Shown: positions 28,609 to 44,995 of the stretch, one piece after another
How the letters are laid out: each line of letters begins with the position of its first letter
How positions within the stretch are numbered: position 1 is the stretch's first letter
Source of the DNA: Myxococcales bacterium
GTDB lineage: Bacteria; Myxococcota_A; Polyangia; Haliangiales; Haliangiaceae
Length of the DNA: 61,370 nt
Assembly: GCA_016794545.1 (NCBI GenBank)
Contig: JAEUJX010000603.1
Coordinates: 1-61,370 of the forward strand
Direction of reading: 5' to 3'
The notes under the pieces: generated by a model
The model's database searches: none
Told to the model about the DNA's origin: nothing
Seen by the model: only the letters and a program-made list of their open reading frames with translations
Program-made: the position numbers and the translations under genes

Positions 28609-28642
28609 GGCCGCGCTGGAGACAGCGCGGCCTTCGTGTTTT
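28609..28642 (+). terminator. Rho-independent-type terminator
   Basis: A perfect 10-bp GC stem (GGCCGCGCTG 28609-28618 with CAGCGCGGCC 28623-28632), a GAGA loop, then TTCGTGTTTT. It lies between the HEAT gene and the larger haem lipoprotein, so the latter likely has its own promoter or depends on read-through. Confidence 0.75.
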
Positions 28643-28665
28643 CCGTCGACGATCGGAGTAGGATC

Positions 28666-31629
<2,964 letters not shown>

Positions 31630-32631: not shown

Positions 32632-34092
32632 TCAGGTCGTTGGCTTGCCCGCCTGCGGCGTCGCCCGGGTGCTCGCCGGAGGCGTCGTATCGGTGGTCGC
32701 CGGGACCGGCGTCGGCTCGGTGATCGGCGGCTCGACCTCGCGGCGCTGGACGTCATCGTCCTCGCCGTCGTGGATGCGCTCGTCGGTCTTGATCGTCTGC
32801 TCCGGGACCACGCGGTTCTGGCGCGGATCGCTCGACGTGTTCTCGCCGCTCGGCTGCTTCTCGAGCGTGAGCGTCTCGATCTCCTTGCCGTTGATGTCGA
32901 TCGCCTTCATCACGAGCTTGTCCTTCGTGACCTCGAACGCGAGGTAGTGGTGCACGGTCGCCTGCTTGAGAGCGCGCTGGCTGCCGAAGAACCGGGTCAG
33001 CCGCGCACCACCGCCGCCCGAGACGACGTAGTTCACCCCGCCGACCTCGAAGCGCTCGTACTGGTGCTCGTGGCCCGTGAGCACGAGGTCGACCTTGCGG
33101 TCGGTCAGGATCTTCGCGAACGCCTGCCGGATCCACATCTGCGGTCCGCGCAGCGAGTTCGTGTACATCGGGTGGTGACCGAACACGACGACCCACGGCT
33201 GCTTGTTCCTCCGGAGGTCCTCGTCGAGCCACCGCACCTGCCGCGCGTCGCGCTGCGTCGTGTCGATCGCGACGAAGTGCACGTCGCCCCAGTCGAACGA
33301 GTAGTAGCGCTCGGGCTCGGGGAGCACGAACGCCTCGAAGTACGGACCGCCTTCGCGCGTGCGGCGCTCGTGGTTTCCGATCGACGGGAAGATCGGGACG
33401 TAGCGCAGGATGTCCTTGTACATCGCGAAGAACTTGCCCTGGAGCTGCGCGGCCGTGCCGGACTCGTACGCGATGTCGCCGAGCAGCAGCATGAAGTCGA
33501 ACGGGACCTCCGTCATGCGCTTCGCGATCGCGTCCTGCGCGGGGCCGCCGGTGCCGACATCCCCGACCGCGACGAACCGGGTCGGCTCCTCGAGCCCGGG
33601 CGCCGCGGCGGTGCCGATCGGCGCCCGCTCGGTCAGCGCGACGCCGTCGACCATCACCTGGTAGCAGTAGAGGTGCGTCGGCTCGAGGCCATCGACCTTC
33701 GCCGCCACCACGTAGATGTCGTCGGCCGGCAGGTTCCTCGGATCGGTCTTCTGCCGCGACGTGCGGCGCGCCTCGCGCTCGGGATCGCCGACGTACGCCG
33801 CCGCCACCGTCGCGACCACGTCACCGCCCGGCTCGGTCACCACGACCTCGCCGCGCATGTCGGTCGAGCCCCACGCGACCACGGTGCTCGTCGTCGTCGT
33901 GCTCATCACGTACGGCTCGCGCGTCAGCCGCTTGCCGCCCTCCTCGGTCGGGCCGCCCTTGCCACACTGGGCCACGGCCTTGCGCTCGAGCGGCGTGACC
34001 TTCACGTCGCCCTTCCACAGGGTCAGGTGGTGGCAGCCGTCGCACGCGACGAGCGCGACGAACGCACATAGGACGAAGCGCAGCGGACGCAT
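32632..34092 (-). CDS. Purple acid phosphatase-like lipoprotein
   Basis: 486 aa starting at the ATG at 34092, with lipobox VAC (RFVLCAFVALVACDGC). Residues about 50-145 form a fibronectin-like N-terminal domain (YVMSTTTTSTVVAWGSTDMRG). The dimetal phosphatase domain follows: GDVGTGG, LLLGDIAYESG, IGNHERR, VVFGHHPMYT and LTGHEHQYER, all five PAP/metallophosphatase motifs. A Pro/Thr-rich acidic tail covers the last 50 residues. It should hydrolyse phosphomonoesters at the cell surface or in the periplasm. The frame stays open far upstream on the complement of the next genes, but the lipoprotein signal fixes the start. Confidence 0.9.
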   Translation of the reverse strand: MRPLRFVLCAFVALVACDGCHHLTLWKGDVKVTPLERKAVAQCGKGGPTEEGGKRLTREPYVMSTTTTSTVVAWGSTDMRGEVVVTEPGGDVVATVAAAYVGDPEREARRTSRQKTDPRNLPADDIYVVAAKVDGLEPTHLYCYQVMVDGVALTERAPIGTAAAPGLEEPTRFVAVGDVGTGGPAQDAIAKRMTEVPFDFMLLLGDIAYESGTAAQLQGKFFAMYKDILRYVPIFPSIGNHERRTREGGPYFEAFVLPEPERYYSFDWGDVHFVAIDTTQRDARQVRWLDEDLRRNKQPWVVVFGHHPMYTNSLRGPQMWIRQAFAKILTDRKVDLVLTGHEHQYERFEVGGVNYVVSGGGGARLTRFFGSQRALKQATVHHYLAFEVTKDKLVMKAIDINGKEIETLTLEKQPSGENTSSDPRQNRVVPEQTIKTDERIHDGEDDDVQRREVEPPITEPTPVPATTDTTPPASTRATPQAGKPTT

Positions 34093-34233: not shown

Positions 34234-35520
34234 GTGCACCGCCAACTGACGCTCGTCGCGTGCCTGTGCGTCGCGCCGGCGCTCACCGCCGCGCAGCCGG
34301 TCGCGAGCACGACCGAGCCGGCCCCGGGCGGCGATCCCGCGACGACGTCCGCGCATCCGGAGCCCGGCGAGCCCGATGCCGACGCCCTCGCCGCCGCCCC
34401 GCCGGCCGATCGCGCGTCGGGCGTGGAGATCCCGGCGCCGCGCGAGCGTCACCGGATCGCGAACACGCTGCTCGCGATCCCGCGGTTCGCGGCGACGCTC
34501 GTGCTCACCGGCCCGCGCTACGCGGCGGCGGGCGTCGACCGCTACCTCGAGTCGCGCAGCCCGAACGCGTTCGGCCGCGACGTGCGCTCGAGCTGGCGCT
34601 TCGGTGCGCTCGGCGCGTGGGAGCCGGTCCTCGGGCCGAGCATCGCGGCGCGGATCGGCCACACGGTCGGCGACGACGGCGCGATCGATCTCCATGCCGG
34701 TGGTCTCGGGCCGCGCGGGATCTCGGGCGGCCTGCGCGGCGAGTACGGCATCGCCTCGCTCGCGGTCGAGGCGGGCACGAGCATGGATCGGATCGATCGC
34801 ACGTTCGCGGCGTCGCGCTACGAGCAGGAGGCCGCGAGCGCGACCGCCGCGCTGACCCTCGGATCCGGGGCGCTGCGCGCGGGCGCCTCGGTGAGCGCCG
34901 ACGTTCGCAGGAACGAGCTCGACATGGCGCCGCCGATCCCGCTCGCGGGGATCGACGAGGCCCATCGCGCGGTGACCGGCGAGCTCTCGGTCGGGATCGA
35001 TACGCGCCGCCCCGTGTACCGCACGATCAATGTCGCGGCGCCCGGCGCGGGCACGCTGCTGCGGCTCACCGGCGGCTACACCCGCGGGGAGGGCGACGTC
35101 ACGCCGGTGTTCCAGACCGCGCGCCTGCGCGTCGAGGCGCAGCAGCTGATCGATCTGTTCCACGGCGATCGCGTGCTGACGCTCGGCGGCCGCGCCGAGG
35201 CGGTGAGCGCGCGCGCCGAGGAGCTTCCGTTCGACCGGCTGCCCGCGCTCGGCGGTGTCGAGGGCCTGCGCGCGCTCGGCCGCGACGAGCTGCGCGGCCG
35301 GACCGTCGCGTTCCTCGAGGCGCGGTACGAGTGGCCACTCGGCGAGGACAGCCGTGCGTACGTCCTCGCCGAGGGGGGCCACCTCCTGAACTTCGGCGCG
35401 ATCGCCGGCTACGGCGGCGGCATCCGGTTCCTCGCGGGCTCGTCGACGGTGCTGCGGCTCGAGCTCGCGGGCGCGACCGACGGCTCGATCGGCCTCTCGT
35501 TCCAGCTCGGAGCTCTCTAG
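34234..35520 (+). CDS. Omp85/BamA-like outer-membrane beta-barrel protein
   Basis: 428 aa, GTG start, signal peptide (LVACLCVAPALTAA). After a Pro/Ala linker (residues 20-70) come about 12-16 amphipathic strands. The surface-antigen (D15) signature is near residue 330: LGGVEGLRALGRDELRG, then AFLEARYEWPL. No POTRA repeats are seen, so this is a short Omp85-type barrel. The chain ends in SFQLGAL rather than a classic aromatic residue. Its stop is directly followed by the ATG of the next lipoprotein with no spacer, so the two are one unit. Divergent from the phosphatase at 34092; the 141-base gap is GC-rich with no clear promoter. Confidence 0.82.
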   Translation: MHRQLTLVACLCVAPALTAAQPVASTTEPAPGGDPATTSAHPEPGEPDADALAAAPPADRASGVEIPAPRERHRIANTLLAIPRFAATLVLTGPRYAAAGVDRYLESRSPNAFGRDVRSSWRFGALGAWEPVLGPSIAARIGHTVGDDGAIDLHAGGLGPRGISGGLRGEYGIASLAVEAGTSMDRIDRTFAASRYEQEAASATAALTLGSGALRAGASVSADVRRNELDMAPPIPLAGIDEAHRAVTGELSVGIDTRRPVYRTINVAAPGAGTLLRLTGGYTRGEGDVTPVFQTARLRVEAQQLIDLFHGDRVLTLGGRAEAVSARAEELPFDRLPALGGVEGLRALGRDELRGRTVAFLEARYEWPLGEDSRAYVLAEGGHLLNFGAIAGYGGGIRFLAGSSTVLRLELAGATDGSIGLSFQLGAL

Positions 35521-37152
35521 ATGGTCCGCTCGCTCGCGCCTGTCGCGCTCCTCGCGCTTCTCGCGCTCCTCTCGGCCTGCAGCTCGTCGGCGACCGGTCC
35601 CGGCCGCCTGCGCTTCGCCGTCGCCGATCCGGTGACGCTGGTCAACGACCGCGTGCCGACGAAGGCGCCGAGCTCGTTCGACGCGGGCCTCGTCGAGTAC
35701 TACTGGCAGGAGGACTTCGCGCAGCCCGCGCGCCGCCTGCTCACGGTCGGCTCGACGCCGCCTGCCGCGAACGTCAACAGCCTCGGCGAGGTCCCCGACT
35801 CGACCTGGTTCACGACCCGGCGAGTGAGCCCCGCGCAGATCGAGCAGGGTCCGGGCGCGGGCGGCCCCGATGCGAGCGCGCCCTGGAAGGTGGTCGGCGT
35901 GAAGGTCGGCGGCGCGGCGATCGGCATCACGATCACCGACGCGCGCGGCGACACCTACGTGCTCAAGTTCGACGAGCGCGGCCACGCGGAGACCGAGAGC
36001 GCGGCCGACGTGATCCTGCAGCGCCTCGCGTGGGCCGCCGGCTACAACGTCCCCGAGAACCAGGTGGTCACGTTCCCGCGCTCGCAGCTCGTGCTCGACG
36101 CGGCGGCCGAGGTGAAGTTCCGCAGCGGCAAGAAGCGCGCGATGACCGAGGCCGACCTCGAGACCTACCTCGCGCTCGCCGAGCACGACGGCACCACCTA
36201 CCGCGCGCTCGCGAGCAAGCTGATCGCCGGGAAGATCATCGGCGGCGTCGAACCGAGCGGCACGCGCGCGGGCGATCCGAACGATCGCGTCCCGCACGAG
36301 CTGCGCCGCGACCGGCGCGGGCAGCGCCTGCTCTGGGCGTGGGTCAACCACATCGACCTGAAGAGCCAGAACACGCTCGCCGCGCACGACGGCCGCTACA
36401 CGACCTGGTACGTGCTCGACTTCGGCGAGTCGCTCGGCGTCGATGCCCGCACGACGGGGCGCGAGCACCTCGGCCACCGGGGGGCGTTCGACTGGGCGGA
36501 CTGGGTCATGAACCTCGTGACGTTCGGCCTGCGCGTGGCGGCGTTCGAGCGCCGCCCGGCCGTGCCGCGCCTCCGCGGCCTCGGCGTGTTCGAGGCCGAG
36601 ACGTTCGATCCGGCGACCTGGGTGCCGAACCACAACTGGCGCCCGACCGACGTCGCCGATCGGTTCGACGAGCTCTGGGCGGCGGAGATCCTGATGCGCA
36701 TGTCGCGCGCACACGTCGAGGCCGCGGTGCGCGCCGGCAAGTACAGCGATGCGCGGACGGCGCGCTACGTGACCGACACGCTGATGGCGCGCCAGCGCAA
36801 GATCGGGCGCTACGCGTTCTCGCGCGTGGCGCCGCTCTACGCGGTGGAGGCGAACACGACTCCGCGCGGCGTCGAGATCTGCTTCGACGATCTCTGGCTG
36901 CGTCACGGCTACGGCGCGCCGAAGGGCACCGTGTACACCGCTCGTTCGTTCGACCACGCCGGCACGCTCCTCGGCAACGCACCGGAGCGCACCGCGACGG
37001 CCGCCCGCGCGTGCCTGCCCTCCGTCCCGGCGGGTAGCGATCGCGATGGCTACACGATCGTCGAGGTCCGGGTCGAGCGCGGCGACGACGAGCTGCCGCC
37101 GCTGTACGTGCACGTGGCGGGACGCCGTGTGATCGGCCTCGACCGCCGCTAG
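35521..37152 (+). CDS. Lipoprotein with kinase-like motifs (unknown family)
   Basis: 543 aa, lipobox LSAC (ALLALLALLSACSSS). The core reads like a protein-kinase-fold enzyme: GDTYVLKFDE (Lys 149), ETESAADVILQRLAWAAG (Glu 157/159), then WVNHIDLKSQNT (Asp 279, Lys 281, Asn 284) and VLDFGES (Asp 300, Phe 301, Gly 302). This spacing is that of the HxDxxxxN and DFG motifs of Hanks, HipA or FAM20-type kinases, but in an exported lipoprotein. C-terminal about 200 residues are helical with a few cysteines. I do not know the family. It starts at the base after the Omp85-like gene's stop, implying a joint function at the outer membrane. Confidence 0.8.
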   Translation: MVRSLAPVALLALLALLSACSSSATGPGRLRFAVADPVTLVNDRVPTKAPSSFDAGLVEYYWQEDFAQPARRLLTVGSTPPAANVNSLGEVPDSTWFTTRRVSPAQIEQGPGAGGPDASAPWKVVGVKVGGAAIGITITDARGDTYVLKFDERGHAETESAADVILQRLAWAAGYNVPENQVVTFPRSQLVLDAAAEVKFRSGKKRAMTEADLETYLALAEHDGTTYRALASKLIAGKIIGGVEPSGTRAGDPNDRVPHELRRDRRGQRLLWAWVNHIDLKSQNTLAAHDGRYTTWYVLDFGESLGVDARTTGREHLGHRGAFDWADWVMNLVTFGLRVAAFERRPAVPRLRGLGVFEAETFDPATWVPNHNWRPTDVADRFDELWAAEILMRMSRAHVEAAVRAGKYSDARTARYVTDTLMARQRKIGRYAFSRVAPLYAVEANTTPRGVEICFDDLWLRHGYGAPKGTVYTARSFDHAGTLLGNAPERTATAARACLPSVPAGSDRDGYTIVEVRVERGDDELPPLYVHVAGRRVIGLDRR

Positions 37153-39719: not shown

Positions 39720-40604
39720 ATGGTCCCGGGGATCGAGCAGCGCCACCTCATGGCGCGCGACGGCACGCGGATCGGCTACCAGGTGCGCGGGCCGGCCGAC
39801 GCCCCGTGCGTGGTGCTCGCGAACGGGCTCGGGGGCACGTTCCTCGCGTTCAAGTACCTCTACGACGCCCTCGGCGAGTACCGGACGATCTGCTGGGACT
39901 ACCGTGGCCTGTACACCAGCGCCGCGCCCGCCGAGGCGACGGCGAACACGGTCGCGCACCAGGTCGGAGACCTGGTCGAGATCCTCGACGCGGAGCGCGT
40001 CGACCGCGCCGTGATCGCCGGCTGGTCGATGGGCGTGCAGGTCGCGTTCGAGACCGTGCGGCGTCATCCAGACCGCGTCGCCGGGCTGTTCCTCGTCAAT
40101 GGCACGTACGGCCGCGCGTTTCGGACGGTGATGGGCAGCCGGCTCGTCGGCCGCACCATCCCGATGCTGCTCCGGCTGGTGCGCGCGCAGGCGGCGCTCG
40201 CCGGGTTCGCGACCAAGCGGATCGCGGGGAGCGACGCCCTGATCGCTGCCATGAAGCGCGTCGGCCTGGTCAGCCAGACCATCGACCTCGAGATCTTCCG
40301 CGCGGTCGCCGCCGGGTTCCAGCAGATCGACTGGGTGATCTACAGTGACCTCCTGAGCCGGCTCGACGAGCACGATGCGGAGGAGGTGCTCGCGACGGTC
40401 GCTGTCCCGACGACGATCGTCACCGGCGATCGCGACCTCATGACGCCGCCCGCGACCGCCGAGCGCATGCACCGCGCGATCGCGGGCTCGCGGATGGTCG
40501 TGATCGAGGGCGGCACGCACTACACGCCGGTCGAGTATCCGGCGATCCTGGTCGACGAGCTCGGGCGGCTGCTCGATCGCGTCCCCGGCTGGGAGCGTGG
40601 CTGA
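39720..40604 (+). CDS. Alpha/beta hydrolase
   Basis: 294 aa. A typical cytoplasmic alpha/beta-hydrolase: oxyanion strand VVLANGLGGTF, nucleophile elbow AGWSMGVQVAF (Ser near residue 103), acid IVTGDRDLMTPP, and catalytic His in EGGTHYTPVEYP. The opening RDGTRIGYQVRGPADAP is the usual first strands. The lid is helical (residues about 135-215). Substrate unknown: ester or epoxide. Its stop overlaps the kinase start (TGATG at 40602), so it belongs to the kinase unit. Confidence 0.92.
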   Translation: MVPGIEQRHLMARDGTRIGYQVRGPADAPCVVLANGLGGTFLAFKYLYDALGEYRTICWDYRGLYTSAAPAEATANTVAHQVGDLVEILDAERVDRAVIAGWSMGVQVAFETVRRHPDRVAGLFLVNGTYGRAFRTVMGSRLVGRTIPMLLRLVRAQAALAGFATKRIAGSDALIAAMKRVGLVSQTIDLEIFRAVAAGFQQIDWVIYSDLLSRLDEHDAEEVLATVAVPTTIVTGDRDLMTPPATAERMHRAIAGSRMVVIEGGTHYTPVEYPAILVDELGRLLDRVPGWERG

Positions 40605-42274
40605 TGCCGCAGTGTCCCAAGTGCGACCACGAGGTCCTCGACATCGACGTGCGCTGCCAGAACTGCGGGCAACCGATCGGCGCGACCGGCGCGCACCGCA
40701 TGGTCGGCCAGGTCGTGCTCGGCCAGTACGAGCTCGTGGACGTGCTGGGGCAGGGCGGCATGAGCGTGGTGTTCAAGGGCAAGCACAAGATGACGGACCA
40801 GGAGGTCGCGCTGAAGATCCTCCCGCCGGAGCTCGCCGCGCACAGTCAGGTCAAGTCGCGGTTCCTCGAGGAGGCGAAGGCGCTCGCCGCGCTCGACCAC
40901 CCGAACATCGTGCACCTCTACAACTTCGGGCAGGAGAACGGCTACTTCGTGCTCGCGATGCAGTACGTCCAGGGCCGCACCTGGGAGCGCATCATCCTCG
41001 AGAACAAGCGGCAGGAGTGGAAGGCCGCGGTGAAGATCGCGTGCGACGTGCTGCGCGCGCTCGAGTACGCGCACGGCCGGGGTGTCATCCATCGCGACAT
41101 GAAGCCGTCGAACGTGCTGGTGCGCGCGCACGACGCGATGGCGACGGTGATGGACTTCGGCATCGCGAAGATGACCACGTCGACCAAGCTGACCGCGACC
41201 GGCCAGACGATGGGCACGGTGCGCTACATGTCGCCCGAACAGGTCCGCGGACAGGAGGTCGACCTCCGGACCGACCTCTACTCGCTCGGCGCCACGCTCT
41301 ACGAGGCGCTCACCGGCGACACGCCGTTCGATGGCTCGACGCACTTCGAGATCATGACGAAGCACCTCTCGGAGCGCCCCAAGCCGATGTCGGAGCTGGG
41401 CATCGAGGTGCCCGAGATCGTCGAGGGCGCGGTGCTGAAGAGCCTCGCGAAGAAGCCCGATGATCGGTTCGCCGACGCGCGCGAGATGCGCAAGGTGCTC
41501 GAGGCCGCGCTGCGCCAGGAGGACGTCGGGCTGGTCGAGACCCAGAAGCTCAACCGCGACATCCTCGGCGAGGTCCGGCCGACCAAGAAGGAGACGCCCG
41601 TGACGGCTGCGTCGGCGCCGCGGATCGCGACCGCCACCGCCGGCAGCCTCGCCGATCAGCTCGAGCCCGGCGAGACCGGTCCGATCCCGAAGAAGGGCCG
41701 CGGCATGCTGTGGATCCTGCTCGGCGGGCTGGTGGTCGCGGGCGGCGCGGCCGCGACGATCGTCATCATGAAGGGGAGGGGGAGCGGCGAGCCGGCCGGC
41801 TGGAAGTCGCAGATCACCGACCTTCAGGGCGTCACGATGGTCGCCGGTCTCTCCGAGGGCGGGATGGTCGTGGAGACCGTGGGCAAGGTGACGCCGGAGG
41901 AGATCAAGGCGAGCTACGCGAAGACGCTCGCGGCGGCGAAGGCGTACGCCTCGACGAAGCAGCTCGCGCTCGAGGATCCGAAGGTCGCGCAGATCATCGC
42001 CGTCCCCGCCGAGCTGTTCTGCGACGTGCGCACGTATACCAAGGAGGTCGCCGAGGACTGCGTGCACGTCCTCGGCGCGGCCCGGTTCACCGATGCCGGG
42101 GCGCTGCGCCTGAGCGTGATCGCGGATCCCGAGCGGCTCGGCCGGGGGATGGTCACGGCCGTCGCGAACGGGCTGTGCTACTCCGCCCCGATCGACGCGA
42201 AGGCCGACGAGATCTGCGCGGTGATGAGCGAGTTCAAGGACGCGCAAGCCAGCGGTGGGAAAGCCCCGCGCTGA
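40604..42274 (+). CDS. Membrane Ser/Thr kinase with zinc ribbon and periplasmic domain
   Basis: 556 aa. An N-terminal zinc ribbon uses C4, C7, C18 and C21 (CPKC, CQNC). The Hanks kinase domain spans about residues 40-310: GQGGMSVVFKG, VALKIL, HRDMKPSNVLV, DFGIAK, GTVRYMSPEQ. After a linker a membrane helix lies at about 367-389 (MLWILLGGLVVAGGAAATIVIM), then a periplasmic domain of about 160 residues with three or four Cys (FCDVR, EDCVHVL, NGLCYSA, EICAVM). The periplasmic part probably senses a signal. It is coupled to the hydrolase gene, and followed by a sensor-like gene with its own promoter. Confidence 0.95.
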   Translation: MPQCPKCDHEVLDIDVRCQNCGQPIGATGAHRMVGQVVLGQYELVDVLGQGGMSVVFKGKHKMTDQEVALKILPPELAAHSQVKSRFLEEAKALAALDHPNIVHLYNFGQENGYFVLAMQYVQGRTWERIILENKRQEWKAAVKIACDVLRALEYAHGRGVIHRDMKPSNVLVRAHDAMATVMDFGIAKMTTSTKLTATGQTMGTVRYMSPEQVRGQEVDLRTDLYSLGATLYEALTGDTPFDGSTHFEIMTKHLSERPKPMSELGIEVPEIVEGAVLKSLAKKPDDRFADAREMRKVLEAALRQEDVGLVETQKLNRDILGEVRPTKKETPVTAASAPRIATATAGSLADQLEPGETGPIPKKGRGMLWILLGGLVVAGGAAATIVIMKGRGSGEPAGWKSQITDLQGVTMVAGLSEGGMVVETVGKVTPEEIKASYAKTLAAAKAYASTKQLALEDPKVAQIIAVPAELFCDVRTYTKEVAEDCVHVLGAARFTDAGALRLSVIADPERLGRGMVTAVANGLCYSAPIDAKADEICAVMSEFKDAQASGGKAPR

Positions 42275-43816: not shown

Positions 43817-44995
43817 ATGACCATCCAGACCGGGCTCGCGCGCCTCGCGACCGATGGCGCCTCGCTGCTCTCCGGGCGCCGGCTCGGCCTGCTCGTCAAC
43901 CCGACGGCGGTCGACACGCAGCTGCGCCACGCGATCGATCTGCTGACCGCCCGGAGCGATCTGAAGATCACCGCGCTGTTCGGGCCCGAGCACGGCGTGC
44001 GCGGCGACGCGCAGGACATGATCGACGTCGAGAGCTCGCACGACGCGCGCAGCGGTCTGCCGGTGCACTCGCTCTACGGCACCACGCTCGCGTCGCTGAC
44101 GCCGACGCCGGCGATGCTCGAGGACGTCGACGTCCTCGTCTTCGACGTCCAGGACATCGGCAGCCGCTACTACACGTTCGTGTGGACGATGGTGCTGGCG
44201 ATGCGCGCATGCGCGAAGGCCGGCAAGGCGTTCTGCGTGCTCGACCGGCCGAACCCGCTCGGCGGCGTGCACGTCGAGGGCGGGGCGATCCAGGCCGGCT
44301 ACGAGTCGTTCGTCGGTCTCGTGTCGTGCCCGAACCGCCACGGCCTGACCGCGGGCGAGATCGCGCGGTGGCGACACGACGTCGAGAAGCTCGATGTCGA
44401 GCTGTTCGTGATCTCGATGCGCGGGTGGAGCCGGGACATGCGCTTCGATCACACCGGCCTGCCGTGGGTGATGCCCTCGCCGAACATGCCGACCACCGAC
44501 ACGGCCCTGGTCTATCCCGGGATGTGCCTGGTCGAGGGCACCGAGCTCTCGGAGGGGCGCGGCACGACGCGGCCGTTCGAGCTCGCCGGCGCGCCGTACC
44601 TCGACGGCCACAAGCTCGCGGCGGCGCTCGCCGCGTTCGAGCTGCCCGGCGTGGTGTTCCGGCCGGCGGGCTTTCTCCCGCAGTTCCAGAAGCACGCGAA
44701 GCAGGCGTGCAACGGGGTGCAGCTGCACGTGACGAACGCCGAGACGTTCCGGCCGTACCGCACCGGCGTCGCGTTCCTCAAGGCCTGCTACGACCAGAGC
44801 CCGGCGTCGTTCAAGTGGCGCTCGAAGGCCTACGAGTTCGTCGAGGACAAGCCGGCGATCGACCTGCTCGCCGGCGGGCCGTCGCTGCGCGAGGGCATCG
44901 AGGCCGGCGCGAGCCTCGACGATCTCGCGGCGCGCTGGCCGCGCGACGAGGGCGCGTTCGCCGAGGAACGCGCGGCGTATACACTCTACGAATGA
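43817..44995 (+). CDS. namZ: Exo-beta-N-acetylmuramidase NamZ-type (DUF1343)
   Basis: 392 aa. DUF1343/NamZ signatures: GRRLGLLVNPTAVD, LFGPEHGVRGDAQ, GLPVHSLYG, LVFDVQDIGSRYYTFVWTM, LDRPNPLGG, PSPNMPTTDTALVYPG and EGTELSEGRGTTRPFE. In Bacillus and Bacteroides, NamZ removes terminal MurNAc from peptidoglycan fragments. This copy lacks a signal peptide, so it would act in the cytoplasm on recycled or ingested fragments, or leave by another route. It starts 16 bases after the sensor gene and overlaps nadD (ATGA at 44992-44995). Confidence 0.93.
   Translation: MTIQTGLARLATDGASLLSGRRLGLLVNPTAVDTQLRHAIDLLTARSDLKITALFGPEHGVRGDAQDMIDVESSHDARSGLPVHSLYGTTLASLTPTPAMLEDVDVLVFDVQDIGSRYYTFVWTMVLAMRACAKAGKAFCVLDRPNPLGGVHVEGGAIQAGYESFVGLVSCPNRHGLTAGEIARWRHDVEKLDVELFVISMRGWSRDMRFDHTGLPWVMPSPNMPTTDTALVYPGMCLVEGTELSEGRGTTRPFELAGAPYLDGHKLAAALAAFELPGVVFRPAGFLPQFQKHAKQACNGVQLHVTNAETFRPYRTGVAFLKACYDQSPASFKWRSKAYEFVEDKPAIDLLAGGPSLREGIEAGASLDDLAARWPRDEGAFAEERAAYTLYE

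Follow-up and report, generated by a model that had tools for sequence, protein, structure and literature searches.

A POTRA-less Omp85 barrel and a kinase-like lipoprotein encoded by adjacent genes: a candidate envelope phosphorylation module

Can a lipoprotein that is exported from the cytoplasm work as a kinase, and what would it do beside an outer-membrane barrel? The question is raised by two genes of an uncultured deltaproteobacterium, which lie in the 61,370-nucleotide stretch of DNA analyzed here as a whole (the window). A sequence-only reading had described an Omp85-like barrel fused in an operon with an exported lipoprotein carrying kinase motifs, and had proposed a kinase-fold enzyme or pseudokinase of the HipA or FAM20C type. 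On checking, both the length of the lipoprotein (543 aa) and the position of its ATG right after the barrel stop were recovered, as were K149 (in YVLKFD), E157, D279, K281, N284 and D300-F-G, all at the positions named. The barrel stop codon (TAG, 35518-35520) and the lipoprotein ATG (35521) abut with zero bases between them, but they belong to two adjacent genes and there is no fusion. The features of the locus are given below, with conservation in a set of 93 sequences that comprises 87 members of an active clade and 6 members of a pseudokinase clade.

32632..34092, - strand: divergent neighbour, calcineurin-like (purple-acid-phosphatase-like) lipoprotein, PF00149 at 2.1e-17
34234-35520, + strand: barrel gene, GTG start, stop TAG at 35518-35520, 428 aa
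35521-37152, + strand: kinase-like lipoprotein gene, ATG directly abutting the barrel stop, 543 aa
35578..35580, + strand: lipobox cysteine C20, Cys in 89/93 homologues
35902..35904, + strand: K128 (in KxGG, close to the first strands of the N-lobe), 87/87 active, 0/6 pseudokinase
35965..35967, + strand: K149, predicted beta-3 lysine (VLKFD), 86/87 active, 0/6 pseudokinase, aligned with the HipA_C and HipA_2 lysine
36274..36321, + strand: hallmark DPNDxxxHExRRxxRG, residues 252-267, immediately ahead of the predicted catalytic loop; D252, D255, R262, R263 and R266 in 93/93
36355..36372, + strand: predicted catalytic loop D279-L-K-S-Q-N284; D279 87/87, N284 81/87 plus 5 Gln (active clade)
36418..36426, + strand: predicted metal-binding D300-F-G; D300 87/87 active, 0/6 pseudokinase

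The gene pair and its spread

The lipoprotein begins with a signal peptide and a lipobox (LLSAC, C20) typical of bacterial lipoproteins, and since the cysteine is kept in nearly all homologues, export, as proposed, is the predicted fate of the protein. The lipobox and the Omp85 partner point to probable anchoring in the outer membrane, possibly at the cell surface. The barrel protein consists of a signal peptide, a Pro-rich linker, an amphipathic segment and a barrel with an LGG..LRG-type motif. Its description as Omp85-like was upheld by profile: 32 of the 53 homologues matched PF01103 (best 4e-16), and a profile search of the PDB retrieved TamA (1.3e-10) and BamA (5e-8), which places the barrel in the Omp85 superfamily. 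When the barrels, in which about 110 residues precede the barrel domain, were compared with Pfam, no POTRA family was matched, which does not fit BamA, TamA or TpsB with their N-terminal POTRA domains. AlphaFold2 modeling of the barrel with its L032 relative gave a mean pLDDT of 31.0.

In single-sequence searches, no Pfam or NCBIfam model matched the window barrel or the window lipoprotein, and searching the PDB with the lipoprotein, by sequence and by profile, returned nothing meaningful. The lipoprotein nevertheless belongs to an unnamed family of about 100 copies. Two paralogues (38-39% identity) are encoded in the same genome, and members were found in 17 of 56 related genomes. In a sample of 379 genomes from the phylum, a profile built from 50 sequences matched 51, seven of them weakly (E 1e-6 to 1e-4), and 48 genomes that were searched again held one to seven family matches each. 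A single-protein search of genome contigs yielded one relative (L032, from the MAG 'Deltaproteobacteria bacterium MGR_bin64'), and no relative was found in the viral contigs searched. Distant, large relatives of about 1200 aa with apparent signal peptides were also observed (L086:2915-6448, L087:2370-5999, L088:94-3660, L093:2424-6677, L089, L090 and L092); they carry the motifs W(I/V)xNxDxKxxENNK and DxGHSxG, match the lipoprotein family in hhalign with a probability of 98-99, and no barrel gene was detected near the large exported relatives at L086-L093. A weak relative in another genome is a 581-codon frame (L091:2932-4674), a probable lipoprotein with NNWDLKTAQN and RDVGASFG.

The barrel gene was located directly upstream of the kinase-like gene, on the same strand, in 62 of the 74 copies with at least 700 bases of upstream sequence, and at a few loci it stood downstream instead. 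Copies with no upstream barrel include L041, L103, L108, L111 and the second copy in L038. The last of these (L038:8999-11284) lies on the opposite strand about 1.7 kb from a barrel-kinase pair and has no barrel of its own, and neither does its sister, L041. Across 54 pairs, the distance matrices of kinase and barrel correlated with r = 0.89, a value reached by none of 5000 re-assignments of barrels among paralogues of the same genome (mean r 0.31, maximum 0.72). The two proteins have therefore co-evolved pair by pair, each kinase having its own barrel, inherited with it as a unit, and it is highly probable that they act together.

A kinase-like fold and one clade without its active site

AlphaFold2 modeling of the lipoprotein with one relative (L032) gave a mean pLDDT of 39.9; the strand order of the N-lobe agreed with that of kinases, in a model whose confidence is too low to carry weight. 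Consequently, the fold was assessed by profile-profile comparison (hhalign), for which profiles were built from the same genomes, with 40 column-shuffled controls each. The lipoprotein family matched bacterial Fam20C-like proteins (probability 68, z 11.0), HipA_C (54-56, z 11.9) and HipA_2 (39-42, z 8.1), and Hanks kinases weakly (7-10, z 5.7), while the Omp85 barrel, included as a control, gave no match (z 0.0). Kinship with CotH (PF08757), a comparison suggested by the sequence-only reading, found no support and was rejected (probability 0.5, z 2.3). D279, N284 and D300 were aligned with the catalytic Asp, the Asn and the DxG motif in the HipA_2 and Hanks alignments, and K149 with the lysine of both HipA families; in the Fam20C-like alignment the register held in the N-lobe only. 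Among 50 members, the best single-sequence matches to the two HipA Pfam models had E-values of 0.011 and 0.016; no HipA model (PF07804 or PF20613) was matched above its cut-off, the window protein had no match at all, and the Fam20C model (PF06702) was absent from the Pfam matches of all 50 members scanned. The sole Fam20C match in the genome of the window lies elsewhere (G000:C438). Each of the profile comparisons falls short of certainty, but combined with the order of the motifs they give a kinase-like fold high probability, and the profile matches and conserved residues support a kinase-fold enzyme or pseudokinase of HipA/FAM20C type.

The residues themselves were then considered column by column. 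In an alignment of 50 sequences, only 54 of the 543 positions reached 90% conservation and 17 columns were invariant, D279 and D300 among them; K149 was present in 49 sequences, E157 in 45 and K128 in all 50, and position 284 was occupied by Asn in 45 and by Gln in five. Thus, residues picked out before any alignment had been made are some of the best-conserved positions in the family, more than chance would give. Conservation of K149, D279, N284 and D300 in homologues, on which the sequence-only reading had made its proposal depend, was borne out across the active clade, and K128, which that reading had not mentioned, was as conserved as the residues it had named. The active clade accordingly displays the pattern of the kinase-like superfamily, i.e. 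a beta-3 Lys, a catalytic Asp, an Asn at +5 and a metal-binding Asp, conserved and in this order. Position 281 is R or K in most members.

A different picture was obtained for six sequences (L094, L095, L097, L121, L122 and L123) that come from one taxonomic family and form a monophyletic group with a support of 1.0. They have lost K128, K149, N284 and D300 in 6/6 and D279 in 5/6, whereas twelve residues (S94, G174, D252, D255, H259, R262, R263, R266, W274, G306, W386 and R424) are kept in all six. As the active-site set was lost together and the structural residues were retained, the set is catalytic rather than structural in character, and its joint loss from a preserved scaffold is the sequence signature of pseudokinase origin. 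Judged by these residues, the family holds conserved-active members plus a true pseudokinase clade. This clade retains the Omp85 partner gene, so catalysis is not always needed by the module.

Transporter and phosphatase genes as recurrent neighbours

Neighbouring genes were clustered without bias, and all neighbours were named by profile match. After the barrel and a cluster of reverse-strand reading frames overlapping kinase and barrel, the most frequent cluster was a transporter, whose representatives distantly match the Pfam TLC ATP/ADP transporter and the NCBIfam NTP/NDP exchange transporter models, some being fused to HEAT repeats. Four of six TLC-type proteins scanned exceeded the Pfam cut-off, but the linked relatives scored only 32-52 bits against TIGR00769, far from its cut-off of 387; because they are such distant relatives, the transported substrate is uncertain. 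In the 48 genomes, 33 of 96 TLC genes lay within 10 kb of a family kinase, where random placement would give 0.66 linked pairs, and PAP2 phosphatase genes, the second enriched partner, lay within 3 kb of a kinase 19 times, as against 0.37 expected; both expectations assume random placement and count related genomes as independent, so that significance is overstated. The linkage of TLC and PAP2 spans several taxonomic families. No TLC gene occurred within 10 kb of the 13 pseudokinase hits in the same 48 genomes. Furthermore, a TLC match was present in 30 of the 36 genomes with a strong (catalytic-type) kinase match and in 109 of the 343 others (Fisher test), leaving six kinase-bearing genomes with none. 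Per copy, a TLC gene was nearby for 30 of 102 kinases, and the majority, that of the window included, had none. The same-strand cassettes in the gene-order table were as follows.

L110, L115, L118, L119, L120, same strand: transporter-barrel-kinase
L042, L051, L105, L109, L113, L116, L124, same strand: barrel-kinase-transporter
L045, L050, L052, L102, L110, L120, same strand: barrel-kinase-PAP2

An apparent five-gene same-strand cassette was seen in L119 (TLC-HEAT, cNMP-binding protein, TLC, Omp85 barrel, kinase lipoprotein). Seventeen of the long loci have Hanks-type kinases in the vicinity; these kinases were set aside, being probably common in the genomes concerned.

Neither a TLC nor a PAP2 gene stands next to the pair in the window. 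However, the genome of the window also holds a paralogue (G000:C32) that is followed, after 0.2 kb and in the same orientation, by a TLC-type transporter gene, and several pairs could thus share a single exchanger. The divergent calcineurin-like lipoprotein apparently also adjoins the closest relatives (G003:C486 and G004:C397, by a shared neighbour cluster), and is at most a candidate member of the system. Elsewhere in the window, on the + strand, are encoded a probable lipoprotein of 997 aa (28636-31629), which combines several CxxCH-like motifs with PD40 beta-propeller repeats and weakly matches the middle domain of hydrazine synthase alpha, a zinc-ribbon Hanks-type Ser/Thr kinase (40604-42274) and a NamZ exo-beta-N-acetylmuramidase (43817-44995).

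A possible module and its relation to known systems

ATP is normally absent outside the cytoplasm, and we know of no solution to the question of where bacterial extracytoplasmic kinases obtain it. The reading that we prefer, with a probability of roughly 0.6, is that barrel and lipoprotein form one envelope phosphorylation module with the linked exchanger and phosphatase. The POTRA-less barrel would sit in the outer membrane as the dedicated partner of the lipoprotein, which, with its predicted Fam20C/HipA-type fold, would work outside the cytoplasm, bind ATP-Mg and phosphorylate an envelope or surface substrate, be it protein, lipid or glycan. The barrel might carry either the kinase or the molecule that it modifies to the outer membrane or across it, periplasmic ATP might come from a TLC-like exchanger in the inner membrane, and the PAP2 phosphatase, whose linkage was observed, could reverse the reaction or recycle its product. 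The lipoprotein is likely to be catalytically active, as a phosphotransferase or nucleotidyltransferase. That the linked transporter delivers the ATP we hold to be an even bet. The complete scheme, in which an ATP/ADP exchanger exports ATP, the lipoprotein kinase and its own barrel phosphorylate and display or secrete envelope components, and a dedicated phosphatase reverses the modification, is put forward tentatively.

It is possible, if on balance doubtful, that the substrate is not a protein and that the lipoprotein is an active phosphotransferase acting on an envelope lipid, polyprenyl or glycan. In several families a PAP2 gene adjoins the kinase gene or lies downstream of it, and PAP2 includes lipid-phosphate phosphatases; moreover, Fam20B and POMK are glycan kinases with a kinase fold. 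However, PAP2 covers other phosphatases too, such a gene lies within 5 kb of only 15 of 78 copies, and no lipid- or glycan-binding domain was detected. We think it unlikely that the lipoprotein performs no phosphotransfer and instead serves, in the manner of a pseudokinase, as a nucleotide-sensing plug or scaffold for gating its barrel or assisting in the assembly of the barrel. ATP is expected to be low in the periplasm, and the clade devoid of catalytic residues has kept its barrel, both of which would fit such a role, but outside this clade K128, K149, D279 and D300 are kept in 86-87 of 87 members, and the TLC-type transporter is linked to active members and to no pseudokinase. Outside the cytoplasm the lipoprotein might catalyse a different reaction of the kinase fold, e.g. 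AMPylation or polyglutamylation; SelO and SidJ are precedents, and R/K at 281 in most members and Q at 284 in five mean that the active site may be atypical; since D279, N284 and D300 fit the ordinary kinase pattern and no SelO-type match was present, we judge such a reaction improbable. Finally, that the motifs are coincidental and the lipoprotein is of another kind, e.g. a barrel-assembly partner, is very improbable: the single-sequence Pfam search, the PDB profile search and the poor two-sequence AlphaFold2 model would agree with it, but three kinase families match at z 8-12 when the barrel and CotH controls fail to, and the motifs stand in kinase order and were lost as a set in one clade.

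The envelope phosphorylation module would matter in several respects. The gene pair recurs across the phylum and is repeatedly joined by transporter-like and phosphatase genes, which points to an extracytoplasmic phosphorylation system; with widespread exported kinase-like lipoproteins, their own barrels and repeated relatives of ATP/ADP transporters, the ATP-source question becomes directly testable. POTRA-less Omp85 proteins gain a function-linked context, and the clade in which the barrel partnership outlives the active site offers a natural experiment in pseudokinase evolution. If exchanger, kinase, barrel and phosphatase do work together, they would make up a new envelope system, a bacterial counterpart of phosphorylation in the eukaryotic secretory pathway. 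In the open-access literature we found no description of an Omp85-kinase pair, nor of a TLC transporter serving an extracytoplasmic kinase.

Among known systems, barrels without POTRA domains were defined as 'noNterm' Omp85 proteins by Heinz and Lithgow in 2014 (PMC4104836), whose text mentions neither a kinase nor an operon; the barrel described here shares this architecture, with a kinase-like lipoprotein as its co-evolving partner. The linked transporter matches both models of the TLC/NTT ATP-ADP exchangers (PF03219 and TIGR00769), but it lies far below the TIGR00769 cut-off, is often HEAT-fused and occurs in genomes not known as those of intracellular parasites. CotH spore-coat or secreted kinases (PF08757) are likewise extracellular, of kinase fold and common in these genomes, yet the profile z is only 2.3. 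With HipA_C and HipA_2 (PF07804, PF20613) the lipoprotein family shares the N-lobe pattern GG...YVxKF...E...AGxxVP and the C-lobe pattern NxD....N / DxG, in the same order. HipA, however, is a cytoplasmic toxin-antitoxin kinase, whereas the lipoprotein family is predicted to be exported, has neither HipB nor the HipA N-terminal module, and carries extra N- and C-terminal regions, with two conserved cysteines (C454 and C498). Bacterial Fam20C-like proteins (PF06702) are common in this class (L184-L203, e.g. L184:634-1920), and in three genomes of one taxonomic family (G174, G081 and G183) their genes lie 2.7-8.3 kb from a TLC-type transporter gene, a placement that resembles that of the kinase-like lipoprotein genes. 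Some of them have a signal peptide or a lipobox and are therefore also extracytoplasmic, and they share with the lipoprotein family a kinase-like fold by profile, with the N-lobe in register. The lipoprotein family differs from them in its missing Pfam Fam20C match, its own hallmark DPNDxxxHExRRxxRG, a C-lobe that hhalign did not place in register and its Omp85 partner.
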